From: a virus
Strand: one strand, 5' to 3'
DNA length: 20,890 nucleotides
IMG/VR virus record: IMGVR_UViG_3300033148_000952
Location: 1 to 20,890 of that record
The notes beneath the pieces are model-generated. The model saw only the letters and a program-made list of their open reading frames with translations, searched no databases and was not told the origin of the DNA. Both the position numbers and the translations under genes were made by a program. Shown here in pieces: positions 1,710 through 20,494 of the stretch. The stretch's first letter is position 1. Each line of letters begins with the position of its first letter.

Positions 1710-3934
1710 CTAATAATTTCGCTTAAATTTCCCTTATTACTATACCTTGCAAAGTTAACCTTTATTTTTGATACTTTTTTCTCAGGTAAATAAAGATGCT
1801 TTTGTGTTGCCATAATTGCTAACCCTGAACTAATTGATGCATCATATTTAGTTCTGTTAGAAATATCAAACTTTGCCCAATCTTCTAATGTTCTTGTGAA
1901 TACCATATCCCCCATCTCCAAGTCATCTCCCATTCCTATCTTCTGTTCTATATAAGATTCAATTGCAGATGCGTGTGCTTGTTTCACATCTTCACTTGAG
2001 TTTGGTATTCCACCTAATTCTCTTTCTGTTTTCGATAACTTTGTATATTGTTTATCAGGTCTATTCATACAGAAACCTCTATACCCTCTGTTCTTGAAAT
2101 GATACAAAAGTCTTGGCTTGTTATTTTCTATTAGTATTGGCATACCATAAAATACACAAGCTTTAAGTACATCTTCAAAAAATATCTCAGCAGTCTGAGG
2201 TCGTGCAATGTATTCCAAGAAAAATTCATTGCTCGGTGCATCATCCATATTGAATTTAGTCTTTCCGTGTAAAGCTCCGTTTGAGCCACCTCCTCCCACA
2301 ACTCCTGAAATATCATAACTATCACAACCAAATGCTCCTAAGTGTTCATTACCCGGATGTTTGATTCCTCTTTTTTCTACTACTCTGTTTTGCAAATTTT
2401 TATTTGGAGTCCAAGACACTCTAAACCTACCTCTACTATCAGGACTAAAGATAACCTCTGTATCTTTTATTCCATTCTTCCAAGATAGTGTACCACGAGT
2501 AATGTGATGGTCCATTATCAAAGAATCATTATAATCTATTTGTTGATATATTTTAGTAAGATTAAATATTGATTGTTTACTTTCATCTCTAAATGCGTGT
2601 GACTCTGTTCTTGGGAACTGTCTATAAAACTCATTTAATGCATCTGCATCATTCTTTAATGACTCAACTTCAGCTTCCCAATAATCAATTGCACCTTGAA
2701 GTATCAGCTCTCCATCAATTCCAAGCACAGGACTTTCAGGTGTCCTAAACACCGGCATTCCATATACATCTATAAACCCTTCCATATTCCACTCCATTGG
2801 AATAAATAAAGAATATAAACCTGACTTAGTTTGTCCGTTGCCATTTCTTTTAGTCACATCGGAATCTTGATATAGTTTTTTAAACTCTTCTCCACCTTTG
2901 TTTAGTGCATTGGATGTAGAACCCATCATACACTTACCAATAATCTTACTACCTAATCTCAAACAAGTTTTAGTAACTCGCCAATTGTTTAGAATATTAT
3001 TTGGTTTTAACCACTTACCACTCTCATCGTGAACTAATAACAATAATTTTTCTCCATCATACGAGTTGTCATCAGTGTTCTTCCAATCTATAGTTGTATC
3101 TAATCCGAATAGCTCATCCTTTTCGGTATTGTACATATTCTTCTTAGTAATCTTTTCTGCAGGAATCCTAAAAGCTAATTCAGTTTTAGGTTTATCCATA
3201 CCATCCATAATAGGTTTAAAGAAAAATGGTAGTCTGTTATTTATAGGAACAACTTTATCTGTAAACATTTTCTTAGCATCAGAACCTGTCTTAGATAATA
3301 TTCCAACTCTTGCATCCTTTGCAAGTGTTCCTGTATTTATACATTCTGAAGAACTCATAAAAGAAAAACCTGAACGTCTTATCTTTAAATAGTCTTGACC
3401 AAAACTTCTTTTATCTGCTTTACAAGCTTCCCAATGCAACCATAGTATTCTGTTAGCTTCTCTATAGTCAGGATATCCTACATCAATTGATGTCCATTGA
3501 AGATACATATAGTGTGAACCTGAGATATAAGTTGGTTTACCATTATTCATAAACCATACTCCATACTCTCTTCTTTCAAACTCTTCTTCTATATAGTCAA
3601 CCCAAGTATCTTTAAACTCAGATGACATCTCATTCCATTGAAATATAGATTGTATTTTATCTAACGACTTAGGTATCTCAGTTCGTTCCCAATATTGTTC
3701 TGATGGTTTCTTGTGTCTTTGAAGACACTTTTTTGGAGTTGGTGGTAATGCTATTCTTAATCCTGATATCTCAATGCAATCTCCAATCTGACCTGTTTTT
3801 GAAATTACAATGAAATCATATTTTGGTTCATAGCCATACTTCCAAGACTTTGCTTTATTCTTGGATGTGAGAATATTCTTAGGCACGACACCTTTAAGTT
3901 CTCTGTATAAACTATTTTGACCTTCTTTCTGCAA
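1706..3934 (-). CDS. terL: Terminase large subunit (packaging ATPase and nuclease)
   Basis: At 742 residues this has the size and motif order of a TerL with an N-terminal extension. A P-loop-like segment, LKIRRSGFS, lies near residues 183-191, with Phe where the Walker A lysine would be. Walker B with the catalytic Glu is LLLLVHDE at 297-304, and a GST coupling-type motif is near 338-340. The RNase H-like nuclease is suggested by D538 (GCDSYD), E603 (LIENN) and D698 (KYDASISSGLAIMA). It would cut concatemeric DNA and drive it into the prohead. It overlaps the upstream small-subunit candidate by 23 nt and the portal by 4 nt, forming a packaging operon. A perfect copy of the 16-base hairpin repeat lies inside the gene and encodes residues 70-74 (CLQRH). 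Confidence 0.92.
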   Translation of the reverse strand: MQKEGQNSLYRELKGVVPKNILTSKNKAKSWKYGYEPKYDFIVISKTGQIGDCIEISGLRIALPPTPKKCLQRHKKPSEQYWERTEIPKSLDKIQSIFQWNEMSSEFKDTWVDYIEEEFERREYGVWFMNNGKPTYISGSHYMYLQWTSIDVGYPDYREANRILWLHWEACKADKRSFGQDYLKIRRSGFSFMSSSECINTGTLAKDARVGILSKTGSDAKKMFTDKVVPINNRLPFFFKPIMDGMDKPKTELAFRIPAEKITKKNMYNTEKDELFGLDTTIDWKNTDDNSYDGEKLLLLVHDESGKWLKPNNILNNWRVTKTCLRLGSKIIGKCMMGSTSNALNKGGEEFKKLYQDSDVTKRNGNGQTKSGLYSLFIPMEWNMEGFIDVYGMPVFRTPESPVLGIDGELILQGAIDYWEAEVESLKNDADALNEFYRQFPRTESHAFRDESKQSIFNLTKIYQQIDYNDSLIMDHHITRGTLSWKNGIKDTEVIFSPDSRGRFRVSWTPNKNLQNRVVEKRGIKHPGNEHLGAFGCDSYDISGVVGGGGSNGALHGKTKFNMDDAPSNEFFLEYIARPQTAEIFFEDVLKACVFYGMPILIENNKPRLLYHFKNRGYRGFCMNRPDKQYTKLSKTERELGGIPNSSEDVKQAHASAIESYIEQKIGMGDDLEMGDMVFTRTLEDWAKFDISNRTKYDASISSGLAIMATQKHLYLPEKKVSKIKVNFARYSNKGNLSEIIR
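3713..3728 (-). repeat. 16-base hairpin repeat, copy inside terL
   Basis: On the minus (sense) strand this reads GTGTCTTCAAAGACAC, identical to copies upstream of early genes at the other end of the window. It can fold as a 6-bp stem with a UCAA loop. It is fully inside the TerL coding frame. Function unknown. Confidence 0.85.
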
Positions 3935-13480: not shown

Positions 13481-13720
13481 TTAGTTTTTATTTTTTTTCT
13501 TTTCAAGTTCCTTCTCTAACTTGTCAATGTGTATTCTATTATACTTAACATCATTCTTTATAACCTCAATGTTAAAATTTTTACTTTGAGATTTTAAGTC
13601 ATACACCTTTTCGTTTAATGAGTCAACCTGATATTTAGTGTTGTACCATACACCAAGTATTGAACACACAAACACGATTACTTTAACTACGACTGCTATA
13701 CTAATTTTCTGTTCCATCAT
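13481..13720 (-). CDS. N-terminally anchored coiled-coil membrane protein
   Basis: The 79-residue protein has one N-terminal membrane segment (about 7-24, ISIAVVVKVIVFVCSILGVW) followed by a coiled-coil region ending ELEKKKNKN. This topology is seen in inner-membrane spanins and other phage envelope proteins. It is not next to the amidase-holin cluster, so a spanin role is only possible. The start overlaps the upstream stop as ATGA. Confidence 0.65.
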   Translation of the reverse strand: MMEQKISIAVVVKVIVFVCSILGVWYNTKYQVDSLNEKVYDLKSQSKNFNIEVIKNDVKYNRIHIDKLEKELEKKKNKN

Positions 13721-14079
13721 TTCTTTTTTCTTCTTATGGCAGATACTTTTTTACCACCTGCACCTTGTTTACCAATTCTTGCTTTTTCTCTTTGTTTCTT
13801 TTTTAAAGTAGATTTTGATAATTCAGATTTTGTTGCCGGTGTCTTTGAAGACACTCTCTTTGATGGTCTACAGTATTCACTTTTACCTCCTGTGCCACAA
13901 GGTTTTCCTGTTCGAGTGTCAATCCATTTTTCTTTAGTCCATCTCTTTAGATTGGAACCTGCTTTAGACTTCTTAACTTTCCCTTTCTTTTTTCTGCACT
14001 TAGCCGTTGCTTGTGCTGCACGAGCTGACCACTTGCCATAGCTCTTCATTACTTTTTTATAACAAGCATCTTTCGGCAT
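13717..14079 (-). CDS. Very basic Cys-containing protein resembling DUF5872
   Basis: Of 120 residues, 32 are Lys and 10 Arg, with only about six acidic residues. The central block LKRWTKEKWIDTRTGKPCGT then SEYCRPSKRVSSKTPATKSE resembles the DUF5872-type motif found in phages and giant viruses. An N-terminal MKSYGKWSARAAQATAKCRK block resembles another recurrent viral basic module. DNA or RNA binding in the virion is a reasonable inference. A perfect copy of the 16-base hairpin repeat lies within the coding sequence (VSSKTP). Confidence 0.75.
   Translation of the reverse strand: MPKDACYKKVMKSYGKWSARAAQATAKCRKKKGKVKKSKAGSNLKRWTKEKWIDTRTGKPCGTGGKSEYCRPSKRVSSKTPATKSELSKSTLKKKQREKARIGKQGAGGKKVSAIRRKKK
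13839..13854 (-). repeat. 16-base hairpin repeat, copy inside the DUF5872-like gene
   Basis: The sense strand reads GTGTCTTCAAAGACAC, identical to the terL copy but in a different codon frame. The shared feature is therefore the nucleotide sequence, not the peptide. It folds as a 6-bp stem with a UCAA loop. Confidence 0.85.
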
Positions 14080-14447: not shown

Positions 14448-14876
14448 ATGCATAATTACTTGAAATATTGGAAGGTGGTCAAACAGTTTGTAAAAACTAA
14501 ATATGATATATCTACTGCAGACTTAGAGATGTTATTGTTTCTGCGTTCTGAAAAATACTTTAGCAAAGGAGACTTCGATGAGTTTAACGAACTATTCCAT
14601 TGGGAAAAGAATAGGTTTGAAAGATTAAGACAGGAAGGTTGGATTGATGTCTTTAGAAAGAAGACAGGTAATAGAAGAGTGTTGTACCAATTATCGTACA
14701 AGGCACAAAGAATGTTGACAAGTGTATATAAAAAATTAGAGGGAGAAGAGATACCTGAAAGTAAATCCTCTAACCCTCAATTCTTAGCTGATGTTTCTTA
14801 TACCAATAAGGTACATAGAAACTATATCAAAAAATTAAATCAATCTATTCGACAACAACAACATCGTTCTCAGTGA
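14448..14876 (+). CDS. Winged-helix DNA-binding regulator candidate
   Basis: The 142-residue protein reads as a MarR/PadR-like winged helix. Helices come from STADLEMLLFLRSEKYFSKG and FDEFNELFHWEKNRFERLRQ, a wing from WIDVFRKKTGNRRVLYQLSY, and a C-terminal helix follows. I associate this pattern with small regulators of marine and Bacteroidota phages. It is the only rightward gene inside the late region and starts just after a palindromic promoter that also serves the leftward genes. This suggests autoregulation and control of the adjacent late genes, which is inference. It overlaps groES tail to tail by 32 nt. Confidence 0.65.
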   Translation: MHNYLKYWKVVKQFVKTKYDISTADLEMLLFLRSEKYFSKGDFDEFNELFHWEKNRFERLRQEGWIDVFRKKTGNRRVLYQLSYKAQRMLTSVYKKLEGEEIPESKSSNPQFLADVSYTNKVHRNYIKKLNQSIRQQQHRSQ

Positions 14877-15102
14877 TGACTGTGTATTGTTCTCCTTTAA
14901 TTACCATAGTGTAACCTGCTCTTGAATCATAATAGATGGTATCATCTTTCATTATTCTTTTCACATCAGTACCCGGTACAACCACGATACCTTTCTTGTA
15001 TCGGATGTCTTGAGCATCTTTAGCTGAAAGCAGTAGACCTGAATCAGTCTTGATTTCTTCTTTGATTTGACTTATCAAAATGTATTTCCCAATTGGCTTC
15101 AT
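14845..15102 (-). CDS. groES: Co-chaperonin GroES
   Basis: The 85-residue protein has the GroES order: KPIGKYILISQI, a mobile loop ending in a GLLL motif (DSGLLLSAKDAQ), KKGIVVVPGTD, DDTIYYDSRAG, KGEQYTVITENDVVVVE. It is slightly shorter than the bacterial protein (about 97 aa). It would form the heptameric lid for the phage or host GroEL during folding of virion proteins. It follows groEL with one small ORF between and shares 59 nt with that ORF. Its 3' end overlaps the convergent regulator gene by 32 nt. Confidence 0.85.
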   Translation of the reverse strand: MKPIGKYILISQIKEEIKTDSGLLLSAKDAQDIRYKKGIVVVPGTDVKRIMKDDTIYYDSRAGYTMVIKGEQYTVITENDVVVVE

Positions 15103-16830: not shown

Positions 16831-16838
16831 TAACTTTG
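16831..16838 (+). promoter_or_regulatory. Candidate -7 box (TAACTTTG) for the rightward nuclease gene
   Basis: It ends 4 nt before the ATG at 16843. Bacteroidota transcripts start about 7 nt after this box, so the mRNA would be leaderless or nearly so. No -33 element is seen at 17-23 nt; the nearest TTTG is about 29 nt upstream. Confidence 0.45.
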
Positions 16839-17819: not shown

Positions 17820-17937
17820 CCTGTCTACCTGTTGACCTGTTGACCTCTGCTCCTGTTGTCCTGTTGTTGTTCCTGTTGTTGTTCCCTCGTTCCTTCCCCT
17901 GTTCCCTGTATCCTTCCCCTGTTCCCTGTGTCCTTGA
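17820..17937. repeat. CCTGTT iteron-like tandem array
   Basis: CCTGTY hexamers start at 17820, 17828, 17836, 17852, 17860, 17872, 17898 and 17918, with a degenerate CCTCTG at 17844. The first units are spaced 8 nt, then 12 nt (CCTGTTGTTGTT twice), then 20 nt (two near-identical 20-mers). One strand is nearly pure pyrimidine in places. The surrounding segment 17690-17943 is clearly more GC-rich than the rest and includes a T9 run and GAGGGGGTGGGGGTACC. It resembles an origin or regulator-binding array. Periods of 8 and 20 argue against coding. Confidence 0.75.
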
Positions 17938-17943
17938 AGACAC
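17928..17943 (-). repeat. 16-base hairpin repeat, variant copy at the array edge
   Basis: The minus strand reads GTGTCTTCAAGGACAC, one base from the other copies. The change keeps pairing in minus-strand RNA (G-U) but breaks it in plus-strand RNA (C-A), which favours a minus-strand transcript. It overlaps the last 20-nt unit of the array. Confidence 0.75.
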
Positions 17944-18221: not shown

Positions 18222-18863
18222 ATGAGTTTATTAACGATTGAACAGAATTTTTTGAATTTACCACAGGTAAAAGATGCGTTAAACCTTACTGAAGTAAAAC
18301 GTACACAGAGGAACATTAACAATGCACACAAGTCCAAGTTTAACCATACGATGAAGTTGACTGCTTTAATCAAGTCAGCCGTAGAATGGTTCGAGTCAGA
18401 GGATGGTAAAGATGCTTTAAGAGAAGAGGGAATAGAATGGAATAAGGAAGACTTCGGTAAGAAAGTATTCGGTTATCAGAAGTCATTCTTCTACAAGCTA
18501 ATCAAAGTATCTAATCTTGATGAGAGAATAGTTGATGCTTTCAACAGAAAATGCGATGAGATTGGAACAGATGCTAACAGAAGTATTGCAGGTTTACTTG
18601 AGTTTTCAAGAGATATTGACCTTGATAACCTTGAAGTATCAGAGGATGCTACAGAGGAAGAAATCACTGAAGCAGAGAATGAAGCAATTGAGTCAGCATC
18701 TGTAGAACAGGAAAGAACAAATTACCTGTTTGTGATGACCTACAAAAATCCTGATGGCAATAACCTGTCAATCAGAATTGATGAGGATGGTAATGTTTCA
18801 GGTAATAACCTTGAGGAAGTAGCTAATGCAATCACTTTCTTACAAAATGCAATTAACGGATAA
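18222..18863 (+). CDS. First gene of the rightward block, 213-aa protein of unknown function
   Basis: The N-terminal half is helical and basic, with KSKFNHTMKLTALIKSAVEW and FGKKVFGYQKSFFYKLIKVS, the latter resembling a DNA-binding or replication-control helix pair. A Glu-rich linker (EDATEEEITEAENEAIESAS) joins a small beta domain (NYLFVMTYKNPDGNNLSIRI) ending in helix LEEVANAITFLQNAING. I do not recognise a family. Position directly after the iteron region and the main rightward promoter suggests an early regulator or replication protein. It uses an A/T-rich leader with no Shine-Dalgarno. Confidence 0.8.
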   Translation: MSLLTIEQNFLNLPQVKDALNLTEVKRTQRNINNAHKSKFNHTMKLTALIKSAVEWFESEDGKDALREEGIEWNKEDFGKKVFGYQKSFFYKLIKVSNLDERIVDAFNRKCDEIGTDANRSIAGLLEFSRDIDLDNLEVSEDATEEEITEAENEAIESASVEQERTNYLFVMTYKNPDGNNLSIRIDEDGNVSGNNLEEVANAITFLQNAING

Positions 18864-18880
18864 ATTAAATTAATAACAGG

Positions 18881-18902
18881 GTAGTGTCTTCAAAGACACT
18901 AC
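18881..18902 (+). repeat. Extended hairpin repeat before the amidoligase-like gene
   Basis: The 16-base core GTGTCTTCAAAGACAC is lengthened here to 10-bp arms (GTAGTGTCTT and AAGACACTAC) around CA. It lies 18 nt upstream of the ATG at 18921 and 17 nt after the preceding stop. No T-run follows, so a terminator is unlikely; the downstream sequence is A-rich. Confidence 0.88.
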
Positions 18903-18920
18903 TCAAAACCAAAAAAAGAT

Positions 18921-19904
18921 ATGGAAAACACAAGATTCAATACAGCGACAGAGACAGGATTAACTTACGTTAACGATGACAACAGAGAGAGAGGAATGGT
19001 TCAAGGATACCACAGAAAGCCATCGCCAAGAGATTTATCAAAAGGAGCAAAGTCTTCAGATATTGCTAACTTGAAAAGTCCAAGCAAGAGGAACCTTATT
19101 GACTTGGGGAATGGGGATTATGACTCTAAATTTACTATCGGATTTGAAGTTGAGAAGAACAGACTTTCAAGAGGAGCAGTTAAGCAGTATCCATTGTTCT
19201 GTGGATTCGAGAGAGATTCTTCTTGTGGATTTGAAGCAGTGACTAACATCTTACCATTGCTACCATCAGGACAATGGAGAAACAAAGTATTCTCTATGAT
19301 GCACGATGCTAAGAGAATTATTGAGGATTCTTCAAGTCCATCAGATATGAGATGTGGTGGTCATATCACAATAGCTTGTGAGGGGATGACAGGTCAAGAA
19401 TTGCTTGAAGCAATCAGAGTAAATAGTGGAATTATCTTTGCTCTATTCAGAAAGAGACTTCAAAACTACTACTGCAAGAGAAACCTGTTTCTTGAGAATA
19501 CTGACCTTGTTGATGTGGTTCACGAATACCATTCTCACAAATTTGCTACTGCTTTAGTGAAAGGTAACTGCGTTGAGTTTAGACTTGTTTCAAGGTTCCA
19601 ATCAGTTAAGCAAATGATGAGAAGATATGAGTTATTCTATGAGTTACTTGACTTCTCAATCAATAAGCCAAATGGCTCTGTAGCATCTTTCCTTAAGAAA
19701 GTTACACCAATCATCAAGTCTATGTATAGTGGCGATATGGACAAGACAAATGAGATTCTTGACTTAGGGAAAGCATTCTCTAAAATGATTAAGGACAAGA
19801 AAATCAACAGACAAGTTATTGAGTTTGTTGACATCCACAGGAACCTTGATGCTGAGACCTACTACGACAGAGACCTCAACAGAAATGGTTACAGAGCAAT
19901 CTAA
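18921..19904 (+). CDS. Amidoligase-like enzyme (COOH-NH2 ligase superfamily)
   Basis: The 327-residue protein carries motifs of the predicted phage amidoligases (Amidoligase_2 type, glutamine-synthetase-like fold). They are GFEVE at 74-78, D99..G103.E105 (RDSSCGFEAVTN), CGGHITI at 145-151, and VEFR at 218-221. These would bind ATP-Mg and join a carboxylate to an amine, making peptide-like bonds on an unknown substrate. Length is typical. A long N-terminal segment (about 1-70) is polar and may be disordered. It is preceded by the extended hairpin repeat and followed by another stem-loop. Early-block placement suggests action on host or phage components soon after infection, which is inference. 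Confidence 0.65.
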   Translation: MENTRFNTATETGLTYVNDDNRERGMVQGYHRKPSPRDLSKGAKSSDIANLKSPSKRNLIDLGNGDYDSKFTIGFEVEKNRLSRGAVKQYPLFCGFERDSSCGFEAVTNILPLLPSGQWRNKVFSMMHDAKRIIEDSSSPSDMRCGGHITIACEGMTGQELLEAIRVNSGIIFALFRKRLQNYYCKRNLFLENTDLVDVVHEYHSHKFATALVKGNCVEFRLVSRFQSVKQMMRRYELFYELLDFSINKPNGSVASFLKKVTPIIKSMYSGDMDKTNEILDLGKAFSKMIKDKKINRQVIEFVDIHRNLDAETYYDRDLNRNGYRAI

Positions 19905-19925
19905 ACCATAACTAAACCACAGATA

Positions 19926-19949
19926 CCTCACTTCAGAAACGGAGTGAGG
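19926..19949 (+). terminator. Stem-loop after the amidoligase-like gene
   Basis: CCTCACTTC and GGAGTGAGG form a 9-bp stem (one G-U pair) around AGAAAC, 21 nt after the stop. Only ATTTGG follows, so it may be a weak terminator, a 3' stabiliser or an RNA-processing site. Confidence 0.4.
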
Positions 19950-19977
19950 ATTTGGTGGTAGAAACAATTACTAATCA

Positions 19978-19993
19978 GTGTCTTCAAAGACAC
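19978..19993 (+). repeat. 16-base hairpin repeat before the lipoprotein gene
   Basis: A perfect GTGTCTTCAAAGACAC lies 15 nt before the ATG at 20009. It shares 5' (TAATCA) and 3' (ACAAA) flanks with the copy at 20479, indicating duplication of a larger element. Confidence 0.9.
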
Positions 19994-20008
19994 ACAAAGC
20001 AAAAAATT

Positions 20009-20284
20009 ATGAAACATTTACCAAGTATCCTTTTAGTTTGTACAGTCGCAATAGGTTGTATAGGTAAACACCAAGCATTAAAGACAGACTTCATTGAAGC
20101 AGAACCTCAACAGGTTGACCAAGAAATCAGAATGGCTACTGCCATTGATAACCTACAGGATGCAATGACTTGGATGAGAGAAGACATTCAGCAAGGTAGA
20201 ATAGATGCTGATTTAGGCAACATCTACATTGACAATATGAATGAAGCAGAAGACTTATTAATTGAATACATTAAAAACAAATAG
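20009..20284 (+). CDS. Small lipoprotein candidate
   Basis: From the ATG at 20009 the 91-residue product starts MKHLPSILLVCTVAIGCIGK, with a short basic N-terminus, a hydrophobic core and AIGC as a near-consensus lipobox (Ala rather than Leu at -3). The rest is acidic and helical (MATAIDNLQDAMTWMREDIQ). An earlier in-frame start at 19952 would translate the hairpin as CLQRH and is rejected. Phage lipoproteins can block superinfection or modify the envelope; that role is only a possibility here. Confidence 0.65.
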   Translation: MKHLPSILLVCTVAIGCIGKHQALKTDFIEAEPQQVDQEIRMATAIDNLQDAMTWMREDIQQGRIDADLGNIYIDNMNEAEDLLIEYIKNK

Positions 20285-20288
20285 AGTT

Positions 20289-20468
20289 ATGAAAGATTGG
20301 AAAGATAAATTGAAAGACCAAGTTACATACAAGATAGACTTCAAAAGTAAGTATGGTAACTACTCAAGTTTTGAGAAAACCTTTAACGACAATAGACACT
20401 TTGAAAATTGGTGGAACTATATGCACAAGCAAGGTCATAAGATAATCGGAGAAACACAAATAAAATAA
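20289..20468 (+). CDS. 59-aa protein, function unknown
   Basis: The ATG at 20289, 4 nt after the preceding stop, gives MKDWKDKLKDQVTYKIDFKS, then aromatic-rich FENWWNYMHKQGHKIIGETQ. An upstream in-frame start at 20262 would overlap the lipoprotein gene and is less likely. No family is recognised. It ends 10 nt before the next hairpin repeat. Confidence 0.6.
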   Translation: MKDWKDKLKDQVTYKIDFKSKYGNYSSFEKTFNDNRHFENWWNYMHKQGHKIIGETQIK

Positions 20469-20478
20469 TTATTAATCA

Positions 20479-20494
20479 GTGTCTTCAAAGACAC
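20479..20494 (+). repeat. 16-base hairpin repeat before the 62-aa gene
   Basis: A perfect GTGTCTTCAAAGACAC lies 15 nt before the ATG at 20510, the same spacing as the copy before 20009. Confidence 0.9.

Follow-up and report, generated by a model that had tools for sequence, protein, structure and literature searches.

KorB of plasmid RK2, a protein of the ParB family, controls several operons from its dispersed, symmetric 13-bp sites O_B (PMC5577506). L5-like mycobacteriophages carry stoperators, of which L5 has more than 20 copies, placed in short intergenic regions and oriented with transcription; these sites are asymmetric 13-mers that are bound by a monomer and tied to immunity (PMC9283540). 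Among RNA elements, clustered phage hammerhead ribozymes flank single phage genes and are thought to cut long transcripts (PMC3088659). The 16-bp palindrome described here resembles KorB/O_B in that dispersed symmetric sites, which would control several operons, go together with a single candidate protein (called HBP), and it resembles the L5 stoperators in its many genome-wide copies and possibly in its short intergenic positions and its orientation bias with transcription. Unlike the stoperators, the copies are near-symmetric 16-mers and often lie in genes, and unlike the KorB operators they are found both within genes and beside ribozymes. As in the clustered phage hammerheads, ribozymes of the related phages flank single phage genes, but 62 out of 82 have the lineage-specific palindrome hairpin directly 5' of them, and the copies in the window come without a ribozyme. 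A late copy in the relatives looks like an intrinsic terminator, with a T-run behind a G+C-rich stem, whereas the three leader copies of the window lack the T-run.

The window denotes the whole stretch of viral DNA that was analysed (20,890 nucleotides, i.e. 20.9 kb out of a 21.4-kb virus record). A scan of the window found GTGTCTTCAAAGACAC as exact copies on the + strand at 18884-18899, 19978-19993 and 20479-20494, and when up to three mismatches were allowed, 12 strand-matches were obtained compared to a shuffled mean of 0.24, a number reached in 0 of 100 shuffles. The repeated hairpin in front of three early genes, which had been noticed in the original prediction, is therefore real, as are the longer arms of its first copy and the missing T-run. 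Leader hairpin 1 (18879-18904, + strand) folds into an 11-bp stem around the core 16-mer at 18884-18899 and lies upstream of the ATG at 18921, at 21 nt when counted from the 16-mer and at 16 nt when counted from the end of the stem. The 327-aa early gene that follows (18921-19904, + strand) belongs to a family confined to the HBP-bearing group and had no match in Pfam or PHROG; an orthologous site is kept upstream of this family in 20 genomes. Leader hairpins 2 (19978-19993) and 3 (20479-20494), both on the + strand, have 6-bp stems and end 15 nt before the ATGs at 20009 and 20510, respectively. All three copies have the simple form of a hairpin, an A-rich leader of 15-21 nt and an ATG; no T-run follows any of them, which rules out ordinary intrinsic terminators as a reading of the window copies. 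Three copies on the minus strand had been overlooked. Two of these are exact and deep within genes: the one at 3713-3728 lies in the gene of the terminase large subunit (sense TGT CTT CAA AGA CAC, residues CLQRH) and the one at 13839-13854 in a DUF5872-like gene (13717-14079), where 16 genomes have an orthologous site. The third, at 17928-17943, has one mismatch (GTGTCTTCAAGGACAC) and is placed where the leftward gene block starts. A search of the window for hammerhead ribozymes (RF00008: CUGAUGA core, three stems, NUH cleavage site) gave no match. The Bacteroidetes promoter TTTG-N-TANNTTTG was considered as a neighbour of the sites and discarded, its sole match at 16835 being at chance level.

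The terminase encoded in the window is 76% identical to that of MW202828, a circular podovirus-like record of 60.85 kb, 46% identical to those of the Flavobacterium elemo phages and about 38% identical to those of Cellulophaga phages. Given these identities, the phage probably has a host within the Flavobacteriia, and the group as a whole, which is uncultured, probably infects this class. The search for the 16-mer in relatives, which had been proposed along with the original prediction, showed GTGTC-N6-GACAC repeated 9-19 times per record of about 60 kb in IMG/VR relatives, approximately half of the copies being within coding sequence; 0.01-0.04 copies per genome are expected by chance, and a backwards control motif was found zero times in all records except two site-free ones. 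MW202828 contains 14 copies of the fully symmetric variant GTGTCGTTAACGACAC, in which the inner pair is changed, exclusively in its early half. When viral contigs were scanned with the bare 16-mer, 118 of the 120 stretches among the matches listed encoded proteins of this group. Another palindromic repeat, GGACC-N4-GGTCC, was seen in two of the genomes (G002 and G003) with 9-11 copies.

Across 31 genomes, in which intergenic DNA makes up just 5%, we located 323 sites: 156 in genes, 138 no more than 150 nt ahead of a start (including two divergent ones) and 29 in other intergenic DNA; these counts rest on our own ORF calls, many records are fragments, and the sequences are related, so that the counts are not independent events. 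Among the upstream sites, distances of 14-23 nt to the start are the most frequent, others form a second class at 30-48 nt, and the remainder trail off to 150 nt. The constant distance to the ATG that had been claimed thus holds for the three window leaders but not in general, considering the 156 sites within genes; the proposed coordination of a gene set fits the data, yet a fixed spacing to the ATG is not the defining feature of the element. Besides the positions upstream of the 327-aa gene and inside the DUF5872 gene, sites are kept upstream of a late gene encoding 250 aa (24 genomes), before a GGCT-domain gene (15 genomes), and inside the terminase (23 genomes), a helicase (21 genomes) and a giant virion gene (19 genomes). 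At the terminase site (..G TGT CTT CAA AGA CAC), site-bearing phages keep the codons nearly letter for letter, including the preceding G, whereas relatives of equal overall identity that lack the site differ at this place in both residues and codons (VYKRS, CFKRH and others). Judging by these comparisons, coding needs do not explain the conservation of the terminase site.

The original prediction had called for a phage or host protein tied to the hairpin, and co-occurrence points to a phage candidate. A comparison of gene families revealed several families that only site-bearing genomes possess, including that of the 213-aa HBP, whose gene (18222-18863, + strand) is the first rightward early gene of the window and encodes the candidate palindrome-recognising protein. 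The HBP family is present in 17 of 17 long records (≥55 kb) with repeated sites (9-19 copies). The four long related genomes lacking HBP have 0-1 sites each: G028 (61.8 kb, terminase 73% identical) has one site, and elemoF, Panino and phi38:1 have none. The association of HBP with the repeat is significant in Fisher's test with ancestry ignored (p = 1.7e-4) and is a co-occurrence within one phage lineage. When HBP alone was searched for, 70 of the 71 loci that contained a reading frame for HBP, among the matches listed, carried the site. The exception, locus L344/L346, encodes a divergent HBP and has six copies of GTCCG-N6-CGGAC (0.003 expected), one of which sits shortly 5' of the ATG of HBP. 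A very divergent HBP is encoded in G005 together with three copies of GTGTA-N6-TACAC, and three copies of GTCTG-N6-CAGAC were found in G009, on whose contig HBP was not seen; each of these two arm changes is thus based on three sites. All arm variants keep the 5-6-5 layout. From these sequences, the arms of the palindrome appear to change with the HBP lineage, in one clear case (GTCCG/CGGAC) and probably in a thinner one (GTGTA/TACAC), and HBP and palindrome are seen to co-vary. The genes encoding the 327-aa and GGCT proteins track the site nearly as well as HBP, so the binder might be some other shared factor. A winged-helix gene at 14448-14876 is not favoured in this role, as elemo and Panino possess the gene but no palindrome. 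In a pattern scan no HBP homologues were found in bacterial genomes, and a scan with the HBP of MW202828 as query gave no matches. Two further observations concern G005: GTAG-N9-CTAC was dismissed as a dispersed site, its copies being repeats of a single stretch that resemble tail-fibre coding repeats, and a long hairpin CATCTTGCCCCAT..ATGGGGTTAAGGTGG is repeated directly after the GTGTA-N6-TACAC palindrome (G005:26359 and 28332).

The AF2 model of HBP (pLDDT 90.7; 91.7 for the N-domain) shows a helical protein that carries a beta-beta-beta-alpha unit at its C-terminus. With the full model, VIA-align ranked the operator-bound DNA-binding domain of KorB first (Z 5.7, 100 residues, 3.9 Å), and the N-domain gave KorB at Z 4.8 and Noc and P1 ParB at Z 3.8; the resemblance is weak, with Z values in the range reachable by unrelated helical folds. 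A Foldseek search of the PDB with the HBP model returned nothing below E 0.9, and HBP had no sequence match in Pfam, PHROG or the PDB; with 17 members of its family, no ParB or KorB model of Pfam was hit, and a profile gave no PDB hit. HBP may thus be likened to KorB in the weak resemblance of its model to a DNA-binding domain and in palindromes dispersed in one replicon at 9-19 per genome, but it is short, lacks the ParB N-terminal region, has no sequence match to KorB and goes with a different palindrome. Residue 36 of HBP is associated with base 6 of the half-site (Q with C in 16/23, others in 4/43); the raw association is strong, but with just five supported independent pairs it was not accepted as proof of specificity.

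The sites themselves carry features of a DNA element. In degenerate genomes (n = 33), the inner half-sites were no more complementary than shuffled halves, and the two halves vary independently. The centre of the palindrome is a CA/TG step in most cases; at the orthologous late site its reading flips among genomes, the copy before the 250-aa gene using the centres CA, TG, TA and CG. The in-gene copies have no stem extension (0.74 vs 0.84 shuffled), and the orientation of in-gene families is 24:14 (p = 0.14) compared to 32:9 (p = 4e-4) for upstream families. The property shared by the copies is most likely that of a DNA site recognised by HBP, given the co-occurrence with HBP, the arm changes, the terminase codons and the weak likeness to KorB. 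On this evidence HBP probably binds the palindrome; the choice of HBP as the binder, its binding to DNA instead of RNA and the regulatory effect are our inferences.

Evidence at the RNA level comes from the relatives. In their GGCT-gene leader, the palindrome is enclosed by an outer stem of 4 bp, which includes a 3x1 internal loop and covaries in four of four pairs (0.304 vs 0.108 shuffled, 0/500; slid controls ≤0.08), while the core arms never vary and are therefore uninformative on covariation. The compensatory changes that the original prediction had asked for are consequently present in this outer stem and missing from the inner half-sites, which show no excess of pairing. The site at the late 250-aa gene reads GGGGA-palindrome-TCCCC-T-run in nearly all genomes, by which this copy is identified as an intrinsic terminator stem at the sequence level. 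We counted 82 unique type-III hammerheads in the loci examined, for instance in leaders of L312, L216, L237 and L214; for 62 of them the start lies 0-9 nt past the palindrome, and for at least 11 others a different 6-9-bp hairpin ends 0-1 nt before the ribozyme. Rfam RF00008 gave two matches above the gathering score in L312 (5648-5701 and 6712-6766) and eight more under it (E 5e-6 to 0.03), and stems I-III of the hammerheads covary in 13 of 15 pairs. On the RNA strand, the centre of the palindrome in the hammerhead modules is CA in 52 cases vs TG in 1, to which shared descent of the modules may contribute; CA- and TG-centred hairpins are of equal predicted stability. In L346, the palindrome next to the hammerhead has GTCCG arms, so that this hairpin keeps to the recognition code of its lineage. 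RtcB ligase was rejected as a partner for the hammerhead ends, since the HBP-bearing phages lack it and phi38:1 alone has it.

These data allow readings other than a DNA site of HBP. The palindrome might be an RNA element only: beside a cut or a terminator it would cap the upstream transcript at its 3' end, or else it would protect the 5' leader, with HBP possibly being an RNA-binding protein; cutting would be done by the hammerhead, perhaps also at an RNase P-type minihelix. The adjacency of the 62 hammerheads and of the at least 11 that adjoin a generic hairpin, the covarying GGCT leader, the stem and T-run of the late site, the 52:1 bias for CA and the proposal that phage hammerhead clusters cut long transcripts (PMC3088659) all speak for this account. 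On the other hand, about half of the sites are deep in genes, in both orientations (24:14) and without stem extension, inner mismatches are uncompensated, the late site of the 250-aa gene has four different centres, and the window contains no ribozyme; moreover, capping would be satisfied by any hairpin, yet one lineage-specific sequence dominates, and beside the hammerhead of L346 it is changed to GTCCG as well. We consider this account possible but less probable than a DNA site that also serves as RNA. The RNA role suggested in the original prediction hence stands for leaders of the relatives (covarying GGCT stem, hammerhead adjacency and late terminator) and falls short as a full account: around half of the copies lie within genes on both strands, inner positions are not kept complementary, and the repeat family follows one phage protein, HBP variants included. 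A view of the palindrome as DNA alone is also incomplete, as the leader copies are under RNA-level selection, visible in the covariation, the hammerhead adjacency and the sense-strand bias of the centre; this bias (CA 52:TG 1; 32:9 in upstream families) is not predicted by a purely DNA palindrome.

Two further explanations were weighed. HBP on dispersed sites could condense, segregate or mark the DNA, in the manner of parS or Noc sites or of packaging marks, which would suit the kept in-gene positions in late genes (terminase, giant virion gene, helicase) and the ParB/Noc/KorB-like neighbours of the HBP model; the sites cluster at gene starts, however (138 of 323 at most 150 nt upstream, in genomes with 5% intergenic DNA), those of MW202828 are confined to the early region, and a CTPase-type ParB domain would presumably not fit into HBP, considering its length of 213 aa and the missing Pfam match. 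We regard such a genome-organising role as improbable. Even further down we place N4-like hairpin promoters for a virion RNA polymerase. Hairpins 14-23 nt before early genes and a 3859-aa virion-type ORF in MW202828 would agree with them, but neither Pfam nor PHROGs finds an RNA polymerase domain in this ORF (a diverged one could escape), late-gene copies occur in both orientations, and hammerheads and terminators are found at the same places; for want of the polymerase domain this reading was rejected.

We favour a dual-use element, that is, a DNA site resembling stoperators and KorB operators which also serves as a leader RNA hairpin. The repeat would be a two-half-site element (5-bp arms, 6-bp centre, 16 bp in total) recognised by HBP, most likely a DNA-binding dimer of the KorB/ParB type, and HBP dimers would occupy the 9-19 dispersed DNA copies. 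Bound HBP would gate the passage of RNA polymerase through early leaders and, in the late operon, at fixed positions, in the fashion of stoperators or KorB operators; such an elongation gate, oriented with transcription in the leaders, would be the control mode nearest to the anatomy of the sites. The leader palindromes would in addition be transcribed and fold as hairpins, which in relatives may act as a cap beside the hammerhead cut, form the stem of a terminator or be a hairpin conserved in the 5' leader. For this whole explanation, an HBP recognition element used for DNA gating and as a leader RNA hairpin, our confidence is moderate. An extended form, in which HBP dimers read the palindrome as DNA, the same sequence acts as an RNA hairpin, and HBP gates both transcription and the ribozyme cutting of single-gene mRNAs, we hold to be unlikely, though less so than genome-organising marks.

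What the repeat suggests is a hitherto undescribed regulatory code that spans the genomes of a phage group common in IMG/VR, with HBP as its candidate reader protein. Natural mutants are available in the divergent HBP lineages with changed arms and in the HBP-less sister genome. For phage hammerheads, whose role has so far been unclear, the palindrome-hammerhead modules offer an architecture of cap, cut and single-gene mRNA.

Several other structured elements were encountered. At six loci (G024:2933, G019:56138, G020:55128, L304, L324 and L286) a tRNA-like minihelix replaces the hammerhead after the palindrome; it consists of an acceptor and a GGTTCGANTCC T-arm with a conserved AATGGTT, obtained one weak tmRNA score, and is perhaps an RNase P-type substrate. 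A second, type-I-like class of hammerhead-like elements, GGTTAACTGATGAG..CGAAAC with a closed third stem, is present at L346:5159, 6112 and 6499, at G025:57243 and 58072, and in the HBP-less G010, and a common leader element ..AGCCTTAG..GACTAAGGCAAACTAA follows the palindrome at G021:4207, G026:2501 and G027:29841. In the window, GroES-like (14845-15102) and phage GroEL (15203-16786) genes were found, which the relatives have too. Positions 19918-19965 of the window contain the structured element CCTCAC-TTCAGAAACGG-AGTGAGG-ATTTGGTGGTAGAAAC, which has no Rfam match and recurs in G016 (L228, around 7816) with a different but paired stem.
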